Below are positions 31,150 through 36,368 of a DNA stretch of 36,368 nucleotides, in pieces. The translations under genes and the position numbers were made by a program. The DNA is from Planctomycetaceae bacterium (GTDB lineage Bacteria; Planctomycetota; Phycisphaerae; Phycisphaerales; Zrk34). The notes beneath the pieces are model-generated. The model was not told the origin of the DNA, ran no database searches, and saw nothing but the letters and a program-made list of their open reading frames with translations. The stretch spans positions 1 through 36,368 of the forward strand of contig NYZD01000167.1 of NCBI GenBank assembly GCA_002685935.1, given 5' to 3'. Each line of letters opens with the position of its first letter. Position 1 is the stretch's first letter.

Positions 31150-31923
31150 TCACACCCCGTTGCCGTTCTCCGGCACGTCCACCGCCACCAGCCGATCTCC
31201 CATCGCCTTCACCCAACGATCCGACACCCCCGCATCCGAGACCACCAGATCCACGTCGCTCACGTGACAAACCCGCGCCAGACTCTTGCGCCCGAACTTC
31301 CTCGAGTCCATCAGCAGCACGCTCCGCGCCGCCTGACGCATCATCGTCTGCTCGACCTCCGCCATCGCGATGTTCTGATTGAACGCCTCATCATCATGAA
31401 TCCCCGCCAGCGAAAACAGCAGCAAATCCGCATGCAGCGTGGCCAGCGCCGACGTCGCGATCGGCCCCAGCATCACCCCCGTCCGCGGATAGAGATTCCC
31501 ACCCACAAACAACAGCTCTACCTTCTCATCATCCGTGAACAAATTCGCGATAGACAAACTGTTCGTCACCACTTGAATCGGTCGCGCCTCGATCTGCCGA
31601 GCCGCGTAATACACCGTCGATCCCCCGTCCAGACATACCGTCATCTGCGGCTCAACCAGTTCCGCCGCGTACGCACCGATCGCCTGCTTCGCCGCCGGAT
31701 GCTCGTGCATCCGCTCCGCGAACACAAGACTGTGATGATGTGGACCCCGATAGATCGCCCCGCCATGCGTGCGCTCGATCAACCCCTGCTGCTCCAGCGT
31801 CTCCAGATCACGCCGCACCGTCGACCCCGATACCCCCAGCGCATCGCTCATCGCTTCCAGCGTGGCCGTCTGCGCTTCTCGAAGCATTTCCAGTAAGCGC
31901 TGCTGACGTTCAACAATGAGCAT
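31150..31923 (-). CDS. DeoR-family transcriptional regulator
   Basis: A 257-residue repressor with an N-terminal DeoR helix-turn-helix (ERQQRLLEMLREAQTATLEAMSDALGVSGSTVRRDLETLEQQG, read in segments) and the conserved THGGA hinge. The C-terminal effector domain is of the sugar-phosphate-sensing DeoRC type with LDGGSTVYYAARQI, VVTNSLSIANLF and LLFVGGNLYPRTGVMLGPIA, then FSLAGIHDDEAFNQN and LMDSRKFGRKSLARVC. It starts at ATG 31923, with no strong ribosome binding site. It lies distal to the BMC genes in the same orientation, 79 bases away. DeoR regulators are the expected controllers of fucose and rhamnose BMC loci; a phosphorylated sugar would be the inducer. Confidence 0.93.
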   Translation of the reverse strand: MLIVERQQRLLEMLREAQTATLEAMSDALGVSGSTVRRDLETLEQQGLIERTHGGAIYRGPHHHSLVFAERMHEHPAAKQAIGAYAAELVEPQMTVCLDGGSTVYYAARQIEARPIQVVTNSLSIANLFTDDEKVELLFVGGNLYPRTGVMLGPIATSALATLHADLLLFSLAGIHDDEAFNQNIAMAEVEQTMMRQAARSVLLMDSRKFGRKSLARVCHVSDVDLVVSDAGVSDRWVKAMGDRLVAVDVPENGNGV

Positions 31924-32002
31924 GCAACAAGATCCGTAATAGTCCGTGCGGGGCCGCCGCCCGCCCGATGCGCTTCTCAACCGCGCCGCGCGGCCCAACC
32001 CG

Positions 32003-33184
32003 TTAACCGAGAATCCGATCCCACCGCGAACGTTGCCACGCCACCTTCTCGGCCGGCGTCATATTTGAAAAATCCGGCTGCCCGCGCGAATCAACCGAAT
32101 TGGCCGTCTTCAAACCCGCCGCGCCGCGCCCGCCCTGATTCGCCGCCGAACTCCCCCCGCCGCTGTACGCGCTCGCCGCTTCGCCCGTCTTCAGATCATC
32201 GTCCAGCGAACGTTTCGGCGCGATCCCCAGTCCCTGCAAATCGCCGTGATACGCCTTCACCGCCTCGACCGCCCCCACCGCACCATCTGCCACTGCCCGC
32301 AACTGCTTCACAAACGAAGGCTGGTGTTCCGCATTGTTAATCTTCCGACCGAACAGCGCCACCCGCGCCCCGTATTTCTTCGCATCCGCCAGCAGGCCAA
32401 ACGCATCGAGTGTCGTCCCCGCCGAACCGCCCAGGATGCCCGGAATCATTGTCCGGTCATAGCTCGCCAGCGCCTCCATCGCCGCCGGCCCGTGATACGC
32501 GATCTTCAAGAACAGCGGCCGACCCGCGCTCGTCACCCCCGCCAGCGCTCGCGCGATGTTGTCCGCCACGAACCGCCCCACGTCCTTGATCTCCCCCTGA
32601 GGCGCATTCGGGTCAAACACTTCCAAAAAGTGACGGAATCCCGCCGTCTCCGCCTCATGGCGAAACGCCCGGTAATGCTCCAGCGACGCCAGATCCAATC
32701 CGACATCATTGTTGAACGTCATGGAATACAGCCCTAAATCCGCGCCGACGCGGCGCTCGCCCGCCTCACACCGCACCTTCCCGCACATGATGTGATCGAT
32801 CGTCGCCGTGCGGAACGGCCGCGACGGCTTCTGCGGATAGCGCCCCGTCCCCCCTGCCAGCCAGATGTCCGTCGTGTCGTTCGCCCGAACTGCCGGCGTG
32901 ATGTGGCTCCCGTCGAACAACCGCTCCTGAATCGTCAGCACCTCGTTCGAACTCGCGCTCATCAGCATGATGTCCAGCAACCCCTGCTCCACCAACTCTC
33001 GCATGTTCTGTCGGTAATCCGCCATCGTGCGGAACCGCGCCTCGCCGCCGTGCTGTTCCGGACTCGCCCCCGCCGACGCCAACCCGAACGCCATGTCCGC
33101 ATCCTTCGCGTCCGCGAGAATGAAATCCCCGCAAGACGGATCCGCCAGAATCCGCGCCAACTTCTCATCCATCGACTTCTGCAT
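32003..33184 (-). CDS. Conserved BMC-associated barrel-like protein with linker and C-terminal helical tail
   Basis: A 393-residue protein I cannot name biochemically but which I associate with planctomycete BMC loci. The core looks like an (alpha/beta)8 aldolase-type barrel: GLLDIMLMSASSNEVL, HFLEVFDPNAPQG, RPLFLKIAYHGPAAMEAL, MIPGILGGSAGTTLDAF and GARVALFGRKINNAEH, with Lys residues that could form a Schiff base as in class I aldolases (inference). After about residue 330 a Gly/Ser-rich linker leads to a final amphipathic helix PAEKVAWQRSRWDRILG. This linker-plus-helix layout is what BMC cargo uses as an encapsulation peptide. Start ATG 33184 follows GAAGGTTGAG; GTG 33190 is also possible. 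Confidence 0.8.
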   Translation of the reverse strand: MQKSMDEKLARILADPSCGDFILADAKDADMAFGLASAGASPEQHGGEARFRTMADYRQNMRELVEQGLLDIMLMSASSNEVLTIQERLFDGSHITPAVRANDTTDIWLAGGTGRYPQKPSRPFRTATIDHIMCGKVRCEAGERRVGADLGLYSMTFNNDVGLDLASLEHYRAFRHEAETAGFRHFLEVFDPNAPQGEIKDVGRFVADNIARALAGVTSAGRPLFLKIAYHGPAAMEALASYDRTMIPGILGGSAGTTLDAFGLLADAKKYGARVALFGRKINNAEHQPSFVKQLRAVADGAVGAVEAVKAYHGDLQGLGIAPKRSLDDDLKTGEAASAYSGGGSSAANQGGRGAAGLKTANSVDSRGQPDFSNMTPAEKVAWQRSRWDRILG

Positions 33185-33206: not shown

Positions 33207-33584
33207 TCACTGCGGCAGCGGCACCCGCTCGCCCAGCACGATCGGCTCAAAGTGATGCGAAACGTAACGTCGCTGCGAAAACTTCACCCGCATCGCCTCC
33301 GCCGGCACGATCAACCCGTCGCGATCATCACGGTAGATCCAGTCATCCCCATCGCGATACGCCGGAGAACCCAGCAGGATGGTTACCTCCGTCCGCGTCA
33401 TCCCAACCCGCAAACGCTCCGCCTGGCGTTTCACCGTCGCGTAGGCGAACCGCTGGTCGCCCTGCGGCAATAACTCACCCGTGCGCGCATCACGCACCCC
33501 GCATCCCCCGGCGCTGAACGCCCCACCGGCCAACACGCAGATCAAGATCAATCGAATCAAGACTTCGCTCCTGACAAGAAACAT
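33207..33584 (-). CDS. BamE/SmpA-like small lipoprotein inside the BMC operon
   Basis: A 125-residue exported protein. The signal sequence LIRLILICVLAGGAFSAGGC ends in a lipobox with Cys28. The mature part has the BamE/SmpA pattern GMTRTEVTILLGSPAYRDGD then DWIYRDD, ending in basic strands VKFSQRRYVSHHFEP. ATG 33584 is used; an upstream GTG at 33602 would overlap the aldolase stop by 4 bases (GTGA) and add six residues. BamE assists outer-membrane protein assembly, but small proteins of this fold have many other roles. Finding a lipoprotein between two cytoplasmic BMC enzymes is unexpected. The operon position (22 bases to the next gene) suggests cotranscription. Confidence 0.75.
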   Translation of the reverse strand: MFLVRSEVLIRLILICVLAGGAFSAGGCGVRDARTGELLPQGDQRFAYATVKRQAERLRVGMTRTEVTILLGSPAYRDGDDWIYRDDRDGLIVPAEAMRVKFSQRRYVSHHFEPIVLGERVPLPQ

Positions 33585-33598
33585 ATCGCGCCTGCCCG

Positions 33599-34477
33599 TC
33601 ACGCCTTCACGCTTTCCATAATCTGGTCCGTAATCGTCTGCACCATCGCCTCGAACGCGTCGCCCGAAACCGGCGCACCGCTCGTCTGAGTCGACGACGC
33701 ACCCGTCACCTGCCCGTCACACCCGCACACCGCCGACATCGGCCGCACGTCATAGTGCGCAAAGAACGGCTCGTTGATCTCACCCACACACCCGTCCGGC
33801 GCACAGTCCAGCCGCTCATCATCAAATCCAAACCTCTTCTTGACTTCCAACAGCTCCGTCATCTGCTGCGAATCCAATACGTTCGTCCGTCCGAGCTGAC
33901 GCGTCAGCATCAGGACGCGACAGTACGCATCCAGAATCTCCAGCTTGTAAAACGCATCCACAATCCCCTTCGTCGAAAAACTCACCGACCCGTGATTCCC
34001 CATCAATACCGTGTTCGTCTGCGCGCCGATCAGCGGTGTGATGCTGTCCGGCAACGCCTGCGTTGACGGTGTCGCATAGTCCGCCGTCGGCACCCGACCC
34101 AGAAACACCTCCGCCTCCGGATGAATCCCCTCCGGCAGCGGAATCCCGCTGATCGCGAACGCCGTCGCGTGCGGCGGGTGCGAATGAATCACCGCCGTCA
34201 CGTCAGGCCGATGCTTGTAAATCGCCAGATGCACCAGCACCTCGCTCGTCCGCTTGTAACTCGTGTTTCCATCCACCTGGTTGCCGTCCATGTCCACCGT
34301 GCAGATCATCTCCGGCTTCAAAAACCCCTTGCTCAATCCCGTCGGCGTGCACAACACACGATCGTCACTGATCCGCACCGAATGATTCCCCTCATTCCCC
34401 GCGCAAAATCCCTTCAGCCAGATGCGATAACCAATATCGCACATGTCCTGTTTCAGTTGCCAGACCTGCGTGGCCAT
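33599..34477 (-). CDS. Class II aldolase (L-fuculose/L-rhamnulose-1-phosphate type) with C-terminal encapsulation-type tail
   Basis: Splits a 6-deoxyhexulose-1-phosphate into dihydroxyacetone phosphate and L-lactaldehyde. The 292-residue protein has the zinc ligands of the FucA family, Glu79 (KRTSEVLVH), His98 and His100 (VIHSHPPHATAFA) and His162 (LMGNHGSVS), at nearly the FucA spacing. GNEGNHSVRI and CTPTGLSKGFL form the phosphate-binding region. After about residue 260 a Gly/Ser/Thr-rich linker leads to an amphipathic helix FEAMVQTITDQIMESVKA, an encapsulation peptide of the kind that directs cargo into BMC shells. FucA itself ends near residue 215, so the tail is extra. AAGGAG precedes ATG 34477. 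Family and BMC role are secure; fuculose versus rhamnulose is not decided. Confidence 0.93.
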   Translation of the reverse strand: MATQVWQLKQDMCDIGYRIWLKGFCAGNEGNHSVRISDDRVLCTPTGLSKGFLKPEMICTVDMDGNQVDGNTSYKRTSEVLVHLAIYKHRPDVTAVIHSHPPHATAFAISGIPLPEGIHPEAEVFLGRVPTADYATPSTQALPDSITPLIGAQTNTVLMGNHGSVSFSTKGIVDAFYKLEILDAYCRVLMLTRQLGRTNVLDSQQMTELLEVKKRFGFDDERLDCAPDGCVGEINEPFFAHYDVRPMSAVCGCDGQVTGASSTQTSGAPVSGDAFEAMVQTITDQIMESVKA

Positions 34478-34487
34478 GGTGCACTCC

Positions 34488-34814
34488 TTAAGCGGCCGGC
34501 TGATCGATCAATTCGCCGTCCACGTCGATCGAATCCAATATCGCACAACAATACGCGTCAATCGGCACCCGCTCCGGGTACCACGGCATCGACGCCTCAC
34601 GCCCCTCGCTCACCGCGATCAACTCGCCCGCCCCCGCTCCCAGATCATCAAACACCACCAGTGACTCCGGCATCGGCTTCTCACGCGCCACATACGCCCC
34701 CGGGGAAACCAACCCCCGCGCTTCCAACGTCTCACAAATCAGATAACGCCCGGGCTTCAGCTCCGGCGTCATCCGGTCCAACGTCACCGTGCCCAGCACG
34801 CGAGCTATCCGCAT
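34488..34814 (-). CDS. BMC vertex protein of EutN/CcmL family (BMC-P), first copy
   Basis: A 108-residue pentameric shell protein that caps the vertices of icosahedral microcompartments. It starts MRIARVLGTVTLD with the usual N-terminal strand, then GRYLICETLEARG, SLVVFDDLGAGAGELIAVSEGREAS (two segments), the diagnostic GAGxGE stretch, and ends with AILDSIDVDGELI. AAGGAG precedes ATG 34814. It overlaps the RpiB-like gene by 10 bases and lies 10 bases before the aldolase. A second copy is encoded at 35719-36003; several different vertex proteins per locus are known for planctomycete BMCs. Confidence 0.95.
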   Translation of the reverse strand: MRIARVLGTVTLDRMTPELKPGRYLICETLEARGLVSPGAYVAREKPMPESLVVFDDLGAGAGELIAVSEGREASMPWYPERVPIDAYCCAILDSIDVDGELIDQPAA

Positions 34815-35716
34815 GTCGATAGCTCCTTCAACTGCCGCTCAACCCCCGGCAGACTCGGTCGCGCGCTGTTGCAGAATCGATCCACCATCACCGACGCCGA
34901 CCGATACCCGTGGAACGGATACTCAATCACCAGCACGTTTGCTCCCAACTGATCCACCCCCTGCTCCACCGCCTCATCGCACGTCCCCACGATCGCCCGC
35001 AACGACGGACACCGATTCGCGTAGCAAATCGCCCGCGACGCCGACGGCACGAACAGCACCCCGCCCGCCACGTCACCCCGCCGCACCCGCTGCGCCAGCT
35101 CACGCACCACGTCGTGCAACGCGTCGGCTTTCCGCGGCTGCCCCGCCGCCACCGACCGGTCCGCCGCCTGCTTCAATAGCGATTCAAACACATCGCACCG
35201 CCCGTCAATCCACCACAGCCACCGCCCCCCGTCCGATGCCCCCGTCACCCCCGCCGACGCTGCTCCCGCGCCGACCCGCTCGACCCGAATCCCCTTCTCT
35301 TTGGCCGTGTCCACCGCCAGCGGGGTCAGCCGCGCATCCGCCGCAAGACAAACCACACCATCCCGCGCCGCCAACAGCAGTTGATCCCCCGTCACAAATC
35401 CGTTCAACGCCTTGCGCCGCGGTGCCCCACCGGCCGCACCACCGCCCCCGTCCGCACCCGACAACGCCGCGATGTACGCCGCCGGCGGGTCTCCGTCCTG
35501 CTCACCCCCCGCCGGCGCTGCACTCCGCTTCGCCTTCGCCGGCGTCGGGTTCTCCGCGCGCGTCAGTCGATCACGCAACTCCGCAAACTTCGAATAGTCC
35601 CCCGTGCACGTCCCGATCACCGGCCGCACGTCCGCGCGCATCACCCCGCCCTGCGGCAGCTGTGCCATCACCTGCGCCACAATCTGATCCACGAGTTGTG
35701 CGTCCGGCGTCGCCAC
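34805..35716 (-). CDS. RpiB/LacA/LacB-like protein with N-terminal encapsulation-type helix
   Basis: A 303-residue BMC-associated protein from GTG 35716 (AGGAC ten bases upstream). Residues 1-20 (ATPDAQLVDQIVAQVMAQL) form an amphipathic helix of the type that targets cargo to the shell, followed by a flexible Ala/Gly/Pro linker region with a basic middle and GFVTGDQLLLAARDG. The C-terminal half, from about residue 190, aligns by eye with sugar-phosphate isomerase RpiB: VVRELAQRVRRGDVAGGVLF, ANRCPSLRAIVGTCDEAVEQ and ANVLVIEYPFHGYRSASVMVD, the region that in RpiB holds the phosphate-binding and dimer residues. The usual catalytic Cys of RpiB-type enzymes is not clearly at its place, so activity is uncertain. 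It overlaps the vertex gene by 10 bases. Confidence 0.8.
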   Translation of the reverse strand: MATPDAQLVDQIVAQVMAQLPQGGVMRADVRPVIGTCTGDYSKFAELRDRLTRAENPTPAKAKRSAAPAGGEQDGDPPAAYIAALSGADGGGGAAGGAPRRKALNGFVTGDQLLLAARDGVVCLAADARLTPLAVDTAKEKGIRVERVGAGAASAGVTGASDGGRWLWWIDGRCDVFESLLKQAADRSVAAGQPRKADALHDVVRELAQRVRRGDVAGGVLFVPSASRAICYANRCPSLRAIVGTCDEAVEQGVDQLGANVLVIEYPFHGYRSASVMVDRFCNSARPSLPGVERQLKELSTCG

Positions 35717-35718
35717 GT

Positions 35719-36003
35719 TCAGTTCATGTCCTGCATCACGTTCATCCCCGCATCAACGATGCCCAGCGTCCACCAGCGGACCGGCGAATTGTTGTCCCTC
35801 AACAGCTCACGCAACCCCAACCCATCCGATGAAATGATCACCACGTCGCCCGCACCCGCACCCAACTGATCCACCGCCAGAATCGGGTCACCGCTCGGGT
35901 CCCCCGCGACATCCAACTGCTGACAAACCAGCAACTTCTGCCCCTCCAAAGAACGATGCCGCACCGTCGTCGTCGCTCGGCCTTGAACCAGGGCAAGTTG
36001 CAT
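35719..36003 (-). CDS. BMC vertex protein of EutN/CcmL family (BMC-P), second copy
   Basis: A 94-residue EutN/CcmL pentamer subunit: MQLALVQGRATTTVRHRSLEGQKLL, read in segments, then QLDVAGDPSGDPILAVDQLGAGAGDVVIISSDG with the diagnostic GAGAGD, and a C-terminal RWWTLGIVDAGMNV. It is shorter than the first copy and has a longer final loop (GLGLRELLRDNNSPV). It lies 2 bases before the RpiB-like gene and 54 bases after the aldehyde dehydrogenase. The spacing from GGAGG to ATG 36003 is long (about 14 bases), so its expression may be lower or coupled. Confidence 0.93.
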   Translation of the reverse strand: MQLALVQGRATTTVRHRSLEGQKLLVCQQLDVAGDPSGDPILAVDQLGAGAGDVVIISSDGLGLRELLRDNNSPVRWWTLGIVDAGMNVMQDMN

Positions 36004-36057: not shown

Positions 36058-36368
36058 TCACACAATCCGCAACGCATCCGCGATCGTCGCCCGGCGAAAT
36101 CGGCTGAACGTCAGCGGATTGGTAATCCCCTCGCCCGTCGGCGTCGCGATCGAATAACTCGCATAACCCTCGCCCCCCCCGCCCAGCGCCGCCGTACTCG
36201 CGCCGTTCGCCACAAAAATCGTGGTGTTCATCGCCTGACCCATCGCCGTGATGTGCGCCAGATTGTTCGAATGAATAATCGCCGTGTGCCCGAAACCATG
36301 TTCGTACTGAATCGCCTTCTCCACCGCCGTGTCAAAATTCGGCACGCGGATGAACGGTACGAACGGCA
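36058..36368 (-). CDS. CoA-acylating aldehyde dehydrogenase (PduP/EutE type), C-terminal part, runs off right edge
   Basis: Oxidises lactaldehyde (or propionaldehyde) to its acyl-CoA inside the microcompartment. The reading frame stays open to the window edge and ends at TGA 36058-36060. About 103 residues are visible: PFIRVPNFDTAVEKAI, YEHGFGHTAIIHSNN, MNTTIFVANGAS, LGGGGEGYASYSIATPTGEG and TNPLTFSRFRRATI, all matching the last hundred residues of EutE/PduP. The nucleophilic Cys and NAD domain lie beyond 36368. It heads the visible part of the BMC operon and is the upstream partner of the aldolase in the pathway. Confidence 0.94.
   Translation of the reverse strand, partial: PFVPFIRVPNFDTAVEKAIQYEHGFGHTAIIHSNNLAHITAMGQAMNTTIFVANGASTAALGGGGEGYASYSIATPTGEGITNPLTFSRFRRATIADALRIV

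Follow-up and report, generated by a model that had tools for sequence, protein, structure and literature searches.

A class I aldolase-like protein of a nameless family as a probable cargo enzyme of the planctomycete PVM microcompartment

The window analysed here is a stretch of 36,368 nucleotides from a Planctomycetaceae bacterium (contig NYZD01000167.1). Toward its end it carries on the minus strand, in this order, genes for a CoA-acylating aldehyde dehydrogenase truncated at the window edge, a BMC-P shell protein, an RpiB-like protein, a second BMC-P protein, a class II aldolase, a BamE-like protein, a 393-residue protein and a DeoR-family regulator. The main features of the locus are:

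36058..36366, minus strand: C-terminal end of a CoA-acylating aldehyde dehydrogenase (EutE/PduP type), truncated at the window edge (NCBIfam NF011927, E 2e-39)
35719..36003, minus strand: BMC-P shell vertex protein (Pfam PF03319)
34488..34814, minus strand: BMC-P shell vertex protein (Pfam PF03319)
33599..34477, minus strand: class II aldolase (PF00596; Pfam/NCBIfam) with its own, different C-terminal tail, the PVM signature enzyme
33190, minus strand: alternative GTG start of the 393-residue protein gene
32003..33184, minus strand: whole gene of the 393-residue protein, an unnamed class I aldolase-like protein with a C-terminal tail (ORF listing)
31150..31998, minus strand: DeoR-family regulator (Pfam)

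BMC-P genes, a PF00596 aldolase, a CoA-acylating aldehyde dehydrogenase and a DeoR regulator together match the gene content described in the literature for the PVM microcompartment (Planctomycetes and Verrucomicrobia), a fucose/rhamnose metabolosome that has the PF00596 class II aldolase as its named signature enzyme (PMC4207490, PMC8217296). Genes for BMC-H, PduL and acetate kinase would be expected past the end of the window at position 36368; in a homologous locus (L100), ORFs were seen, by inspection only, at these positions. Two smaller genes of the window deserve mention in their own right. The BamE-like small protein (PF04355, E 1.2e-5; 33207-33602, minus strand) lies between the class II aldolase and the 393-residue protein gene, overlaps the end of the aldolase gene and, of the loci examined, gave a match in the window's own genome alone. 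The RpiB-like protein (PF02502, E 1.6e-5; 34805-35716, minus strand) has an N-terminus, DAQLVDQIVAQVMAQL, with a helix-like segment that resembles a canonical encapsulation peptide, and related genes also occur in several other PVM loci (L086, L090, L100, L102 and L106).

The initial annotation had placed a 393-residue protein at 32003-33184 with no strand stated. On the minus strand, 33184 to 32003 is an intact open reading frame of 393 codons plus stop in the ORF listing, and the plus-strand reading frame is interrupted across the same interval, so that the protein is real and its gene lies on the minus strand. Searches of Pfam, NCBIfam and the PDB (by phmmer and by profile) returned no sequence-family match to this protein, and its relatives, which are encoded in at least 452 stretches of GTDB genomes, likewise found no sequence identification in these three collections. 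A lone weak PDB match, to dihydrodipicolinate synthase at E 0.31, was taken as chance, though this enzyme is also a TIM barrel. Term searches of the literature returned no description of the family; the founding PVM paper, which was outside their coverage, may list the gene as hypothetical. The family is currently nameless.

The predicted parts of the protein, from the N-terminus onward, are the following:

32195..33184, minus strand: predicted catalytic TIM-barrel core, residues 1-330 (AlphaFold2, Foldseek, hhalign to the LsrF family)
32621..32623, minus strand: Glu188 (HFLEVFDPN), candidate acid/base residue, conserved in 106/106 sequences
32504..32506, minus strand: Lys227 (FLKIAYHGP), predicted Schiff-base lysine, aligned with LsrF K203 by hhalign and conserved in 106/106
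32345..32350, minus strand: Gly279-Arg280 (FGRKINNAEHQ), predicted phosphate-binding motif on strand 8, aligned with LsrF G253-R254 and conserved in 106/106
32075..32176, minus strand: flexible Gly/Ser/Ala linker, residues 337-370 (pLDDT <50 over 337-363; column identity 0.23 for 341-366)
32006..32074, minus strand: C-terminal tail, residues 371-393 (DFSNMTPAEKVAWQRSRWDRILG), a probable BMC-targeting peptide with the conserved family motif and a helix at 377-392

The AlphaFold2 model, computed from a shallow alignment of 24 window and locus sequences (Neff ~2), is a TIM barrel of alternating strands and helices with a mean pLDDT of 77. The best-ranked Foldseek matches of this model all belong to the class I aldolase superfamily of TIM-barrel enzymes, i.e. 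LsrF (E 3.5e-9, probability 1.00), ADH synthase, LacD, archaeal FBPA and YihT, with moderate TM-scores to LsrF (0.50 by query and 0.69 by target) and ~14% identity to the nearest solved structures. A family-to-family hhalign comparison of an 86-row alignment with LsrF and its planctomycete relatives gave a probability of 95 and an E-value of 9.6e-9, and with all 106 rows a probability of 90 and an E-value of 1.9e-6, where the E-values apply to one comparison and not to a database. None of the controls (a reversed profile, an XylA/xylose-isomerase-like barrel, the class II aldolase) produced a noteworthy alignment. Profile comparisons with the single E. coli YihT and FbaB sequences were not significant; therefore, membership in either subfamily is not claimed. 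The PF01791 model found no match in the protein or in 24 relatives even at E 10, where only noise was returned, so the kinship to the superfamily is one of fold and profile alignment, and the family is not filed in PF01791.

In the hhalign alignment Lys227 falls on LsrF K203, the established catalytic lysine of that enzyme, and it sits at the end of strand 6 of the barrel, the strand that bears the catalytic lysine in the superfamily. Gly252-253 align with LsrF GG226-227, and Glu188 is placed on the Glu of the YihT 'IIEPVV' segment by a non-significant alignment only. Lys227, Asp25, Glu188 and Arg280 are invariant in 106/106 sequences, including those that lack the tail. The protein shares with the DeoC/LacD/LsrF superfamily (PF01791 and kin: LsrF, ADH synthase, archaeal FBPA, tagatose-1,6-bisphosphate aldolase and YihT) the TIM barrel, the strand 6 lysine, the strand 7 GG and the strand 8 GR, but it differs from its members in the missing PF01791 match, the low identity and the C-terminal linker and tail. 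The structure prediction that had been proposed as a check on fold and lysine site therefore agrees with the earlier impression of a barrel-like protein, and the suggestion of a class I aldolase-like reaction gains support from the fold, from the lysine alignment with its null controls and from operon partners in other genomes (see below). We regard the assignment of the predicted fold and lysine site to the class I (Schiff-base) aldolase type as well supported.

Beyond the barrel, the Gly/Ser linker of the initial annotation is borne out as a Gly/Ser/Ala-rich stretch after residue ~337, predicted to be disordered, and a terminal helix follows it in the AlphaFold2 model. An encapsulation peptide is defined as a terminal helix of ~15-20 residues on a flexible linker (PMC8217296), and the model of the 393-residue protein has this layout. 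The family tail reads PDFSxMTxxEKxxWNLxRWxRIxG after a linker that varies in length from 19 to 74 residues, and the motif is present in 80/86 homologues. Averaged by column over these 86 homologues, identity falls from 0.79 in the core to 0.23 in the linker and recovers to 0.69 in the tail, so that tail conservation, on which the cargo proposal had been staked beforehand, holds. The terminal helix had also been described as amphipathic and as similar to the tail of the co-operonic aldolase. The helix itself stands, but its amphipathicity is only weakly held, since the hydrophobic moment of the window copy equals that of shuffled sequences (0.276 vs 0.277) and that of the family consensus lies above its shuffles at p ~0.08 (0.461 vs 0.263); the likeness to the class II aldolase fails, as the two tail sequences differ. 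Nor does the tail show the hydrophobic repeat that is usual in known encapsulation peptides. When 36 genomes were scanned with a tail profile, convincing matches were found in the family of the 393-residue protein only, and the best matches to other proteins (E 0.007 in G200 and E 0.012 in G143) were not convincing as a shared targeting motif. Because the tail differs from that of the class II aldolase and the window helix is not more amphipathic than shuffles, we consider it a plausible but atypical encapsulation peptide.

The gene had been expected always to lie inside the PVM locus, and this expectation failed, for in most of the 80 closest relatives it lies elsewhere; linkage alone is therefore insufficient to explain an association with microcompartments. 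In many Pirellulaceae, on the other hand, the gene sits in the PVM operon itself, behind a lactate dehydrogenase. As it is so often outside the locus, its co-occurrence with shell genes was assessed in an even sample of 294 Planctomycetota genomes, in which the gene was called from strong matches only. Both PF03319 and the PVM aldolase were used as PVM markers, because PF03319 alone, being common to other BMC types, overcounts PVM loci. The gene was found in 38/294 genomes, 36 of which carry BMC-P together with the PVM class II aldolase (Fisher p ~1e-30, with the reservation that related genomes are not independent). Tailed copies in this sample were in BMC-P genomes in 32/32 cases, and one further copy was cut by a contig end. 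Among further tailed genomes, reached via gene-bearing loci and overlapping little with the first sample, BMC-P was present in 42/42 and the PVM aldolase in 40/42. In the two gene-bearing genomes without BMC-P (G302 and G096) the copies stop before the tail, such that BMC-less genomes hold tailless copies only. Tailless copies are also kept in three genomes that do have a BMC (G224, G299 and G114). On a tree built from core sequences, three changes are needed to explain the tailless state: one falls in a separate lineage and two on nested long branches. In addition, 17 genomes with the PVM aldolase and BMC-P lack the gene, which is thus not essential to the organelle.

These distributions bear on whether the enzyme is cytosolic, its tail being an oligomerisation or partner-binding element and its co-occurrence with BMC genes a result of a shared sugar-rich lifestyle and common descent. 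The difference of the tail from canonical encapsulation peptides, the frequent distance of the gene from the BMC locus and the three BMC-bearing genomes with tailless copies would all fit such an enzyme, but it would leave unaccounted for the presence of BMC-P in every tailed genome of both sets, the restriction of BMC-less genomes to tailless copies and the place of the gene inside the PVM operon in many Pirellulaceae, and we consider it unlikely. The earlier guess of a BMC cargo is instead supported by the conservation of the tail, by the strict co-occurrence of tailed copies with shell genes even when unlinked, and by the tailless copies of BMC-less genomes. The protein is a good candidate for membership in the PVM cargo set, and from the computed co-occurrence of tail and shell we infer that the tail drives its encapsulation.

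Outside the PVM locus, the neighbours of the gene point to sugar catabolism in about eight loci, the window not being among them; the genes identified in the window include no linked kinase or isomerase of the PfkB or sugar-isomerase kind. A PfkB sugar kinase gene is adjacent on the same strand in L039, L041, L055 and L088, and adjacent or nearby on the opposite strand in L032, L038, L068 and L094. In L039 and L055 the barrel gene and the PfkB gene are joined by a D-lyxose isomerase family gene (PF07385) and a GH38 alpha-mannosidase gene. A xylose-isomerase-like gene accompanies barrel and PfkB genes in L041 and, in a divergent arrangement, in L032 and L038. In a BMC-less genome (L088:8289-11807), a tailless barrel gene stands in an overlapping run with a PfkB gene and a gene for a sulfoquinovose-isomerase-like protein (NF048012, E 5e-35, under the curated cut-off), and in L095 an aldehyde dehydrogenase gene comes next after another tailless copy.

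The class I superfamily also includes non-aldolases, such as the LsrF thiolase and the ADH synthase transaldolase, and the protein might catalyse an LsrF-type thiolase/acyltransferase or ADH-synthase-type transaldolase reaction on the acyl-CoA or DHAP pools of the BMC. That LsrF, an annotated thiolase, is the best match in both fold and profile, with ADH synthase next, speaks for such a reaction; the combination of isomerase, kinase and aldolase genes, typical of sugar breakdown, and the tailless copy beside an aldehyde dehydrogenase speak against it, and we hold it to be improbable. We are moderately confident that the protein instead cleaves a ketose phosphate by an aldol reaction. The linked isomerase families, where characterised, make D-xylulose- or D-fructose-type ketoses, from which we infer a D-ketose 1-phosphate as the probable substrate class; our confidence in any single substrate is low. 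The nature of these isomerases, which are not of the L-fuculose kind, together with the finding that all gene-bearing BMC genomes among the 294 have the class II enzyme, also makes it rather improbable, and slightly more so than either reading above, that the protein is an isozyme of the class II aldolase that cleaves L-fuculose- or L-rhamnulose-1-phosphate and opens no second sugar route, even though the two aldolases share locus and regulator neighbourhood and both reactions could in principle yield DHAP and lactaldehyde.

Taken together, the protein is probably a class I (Schiff-base) ketose-phosphate aldolase of an unnamed family and a lumen cargo of the planctomycete PVM microcompartment. 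In the proposed mechanism, an isomerase and a PfkB kinase would make a ketose 1-phosphate, most likely D-configured, with which Lys227 would form a Schiff base; cleavage would give DHAP and, according to the sugar used, lactaldehyde, glyceraldehyde or glycolaldehyde as the short hydroxyaldehyde. The tail on its flexible linker would target the enzyme to the inside of the shell, where it would make the aldehyde beside the aldehyde dehydrogenase of the compartment. The enzyme would be a second entry point to the organelle, alongside the class II aldolase and its cleavage of L-fuculose- and L-rhamnulose-1-phosphate. More tentatively, and with slightly less than even confidence, we suggest that the PVM microcompartment serves as a common hub for aldehydes supplied by no fewer than two unrelated aldolases. 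Into this organelle, for which only L-fucose and L-rhamnose are known as sugars, a class I aldolase encoded apart from it, and in some lineages in an isomerase and kinase operon of its own, would be recruited by a private tail and would admit D-configured and perhaps 6-deoxy ketose phosphates.

Several known systems resemble the proposed one in part. The published accounts of the PVM microcompartment covered here name one aldolase, of class II (PMC4207490, PMC8217296), whereas here a putative second, of an unrelated class and often encoded off-locus, lies in or co-occurs with such loci. The sulfoglycolytic EMP pathway of YihS, YihV and YihT also runs from an aldose isomerase over a PfkB kinase to a class I aldolase that yields DHAP and a lactaldehyde, and one tailless copy is linked to a sulfoquinovose-isomerase-like gene (L088); however, the profile comparison with YihT alone is non-significant and the window bears no sign of a sulfonated substrate. 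In the SPU-type BMC a class I TIM-barrel aldolase, DeoC, likewise feeds aldehyde to a BMC (PMC8217296), but DeoC is a PF01791 deoxyribose-phosphate aldolase, whereas the present family is outside PF01791 and lives with PVM shells and the class II aldolase.

If correct, this reading would name a function for a family that has so far gone uncharacterised despite at least 452 matches in GTDB genomes. It would also give a second substrate class to the fucose/rhamnose organelle of the Planctomycetes, a group of importance for the turnover of algal and plant polysaccharides. Metabolosome cargo would then be predictable from a tail even where the gene is far from the shell genes, and the tail, as an unusual targeting peptide, would be a candidate for engineering.

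A few further observations were made in other genomes. In L055:9995-15417 and L039:9995-15413 the barrel aldolase, PfkB kinase, D-lyxose-isomerase-like and GH38 genes form an operon, with DeoR divergent to it, and may make up a whole pathway for a sugar derived from an alpha-mannoside. In G001, a BMC-less genome of the same family, the class II aldolase match (C3:7479-8168) also ends before its C-terminal tail, paralleling the absence of the tail in the barrel family. DeoC-family genes occur near BMC-P genes in other members of the phylum. Genomes of family f30 (e.g. G176 and G229) typically have five BMC-P copies and no barrel gene, and a shorter, tailless class II aldolase match of ~210 residues adjoins a BMC-P gene there; this lineage possibly harbours another BMC type.
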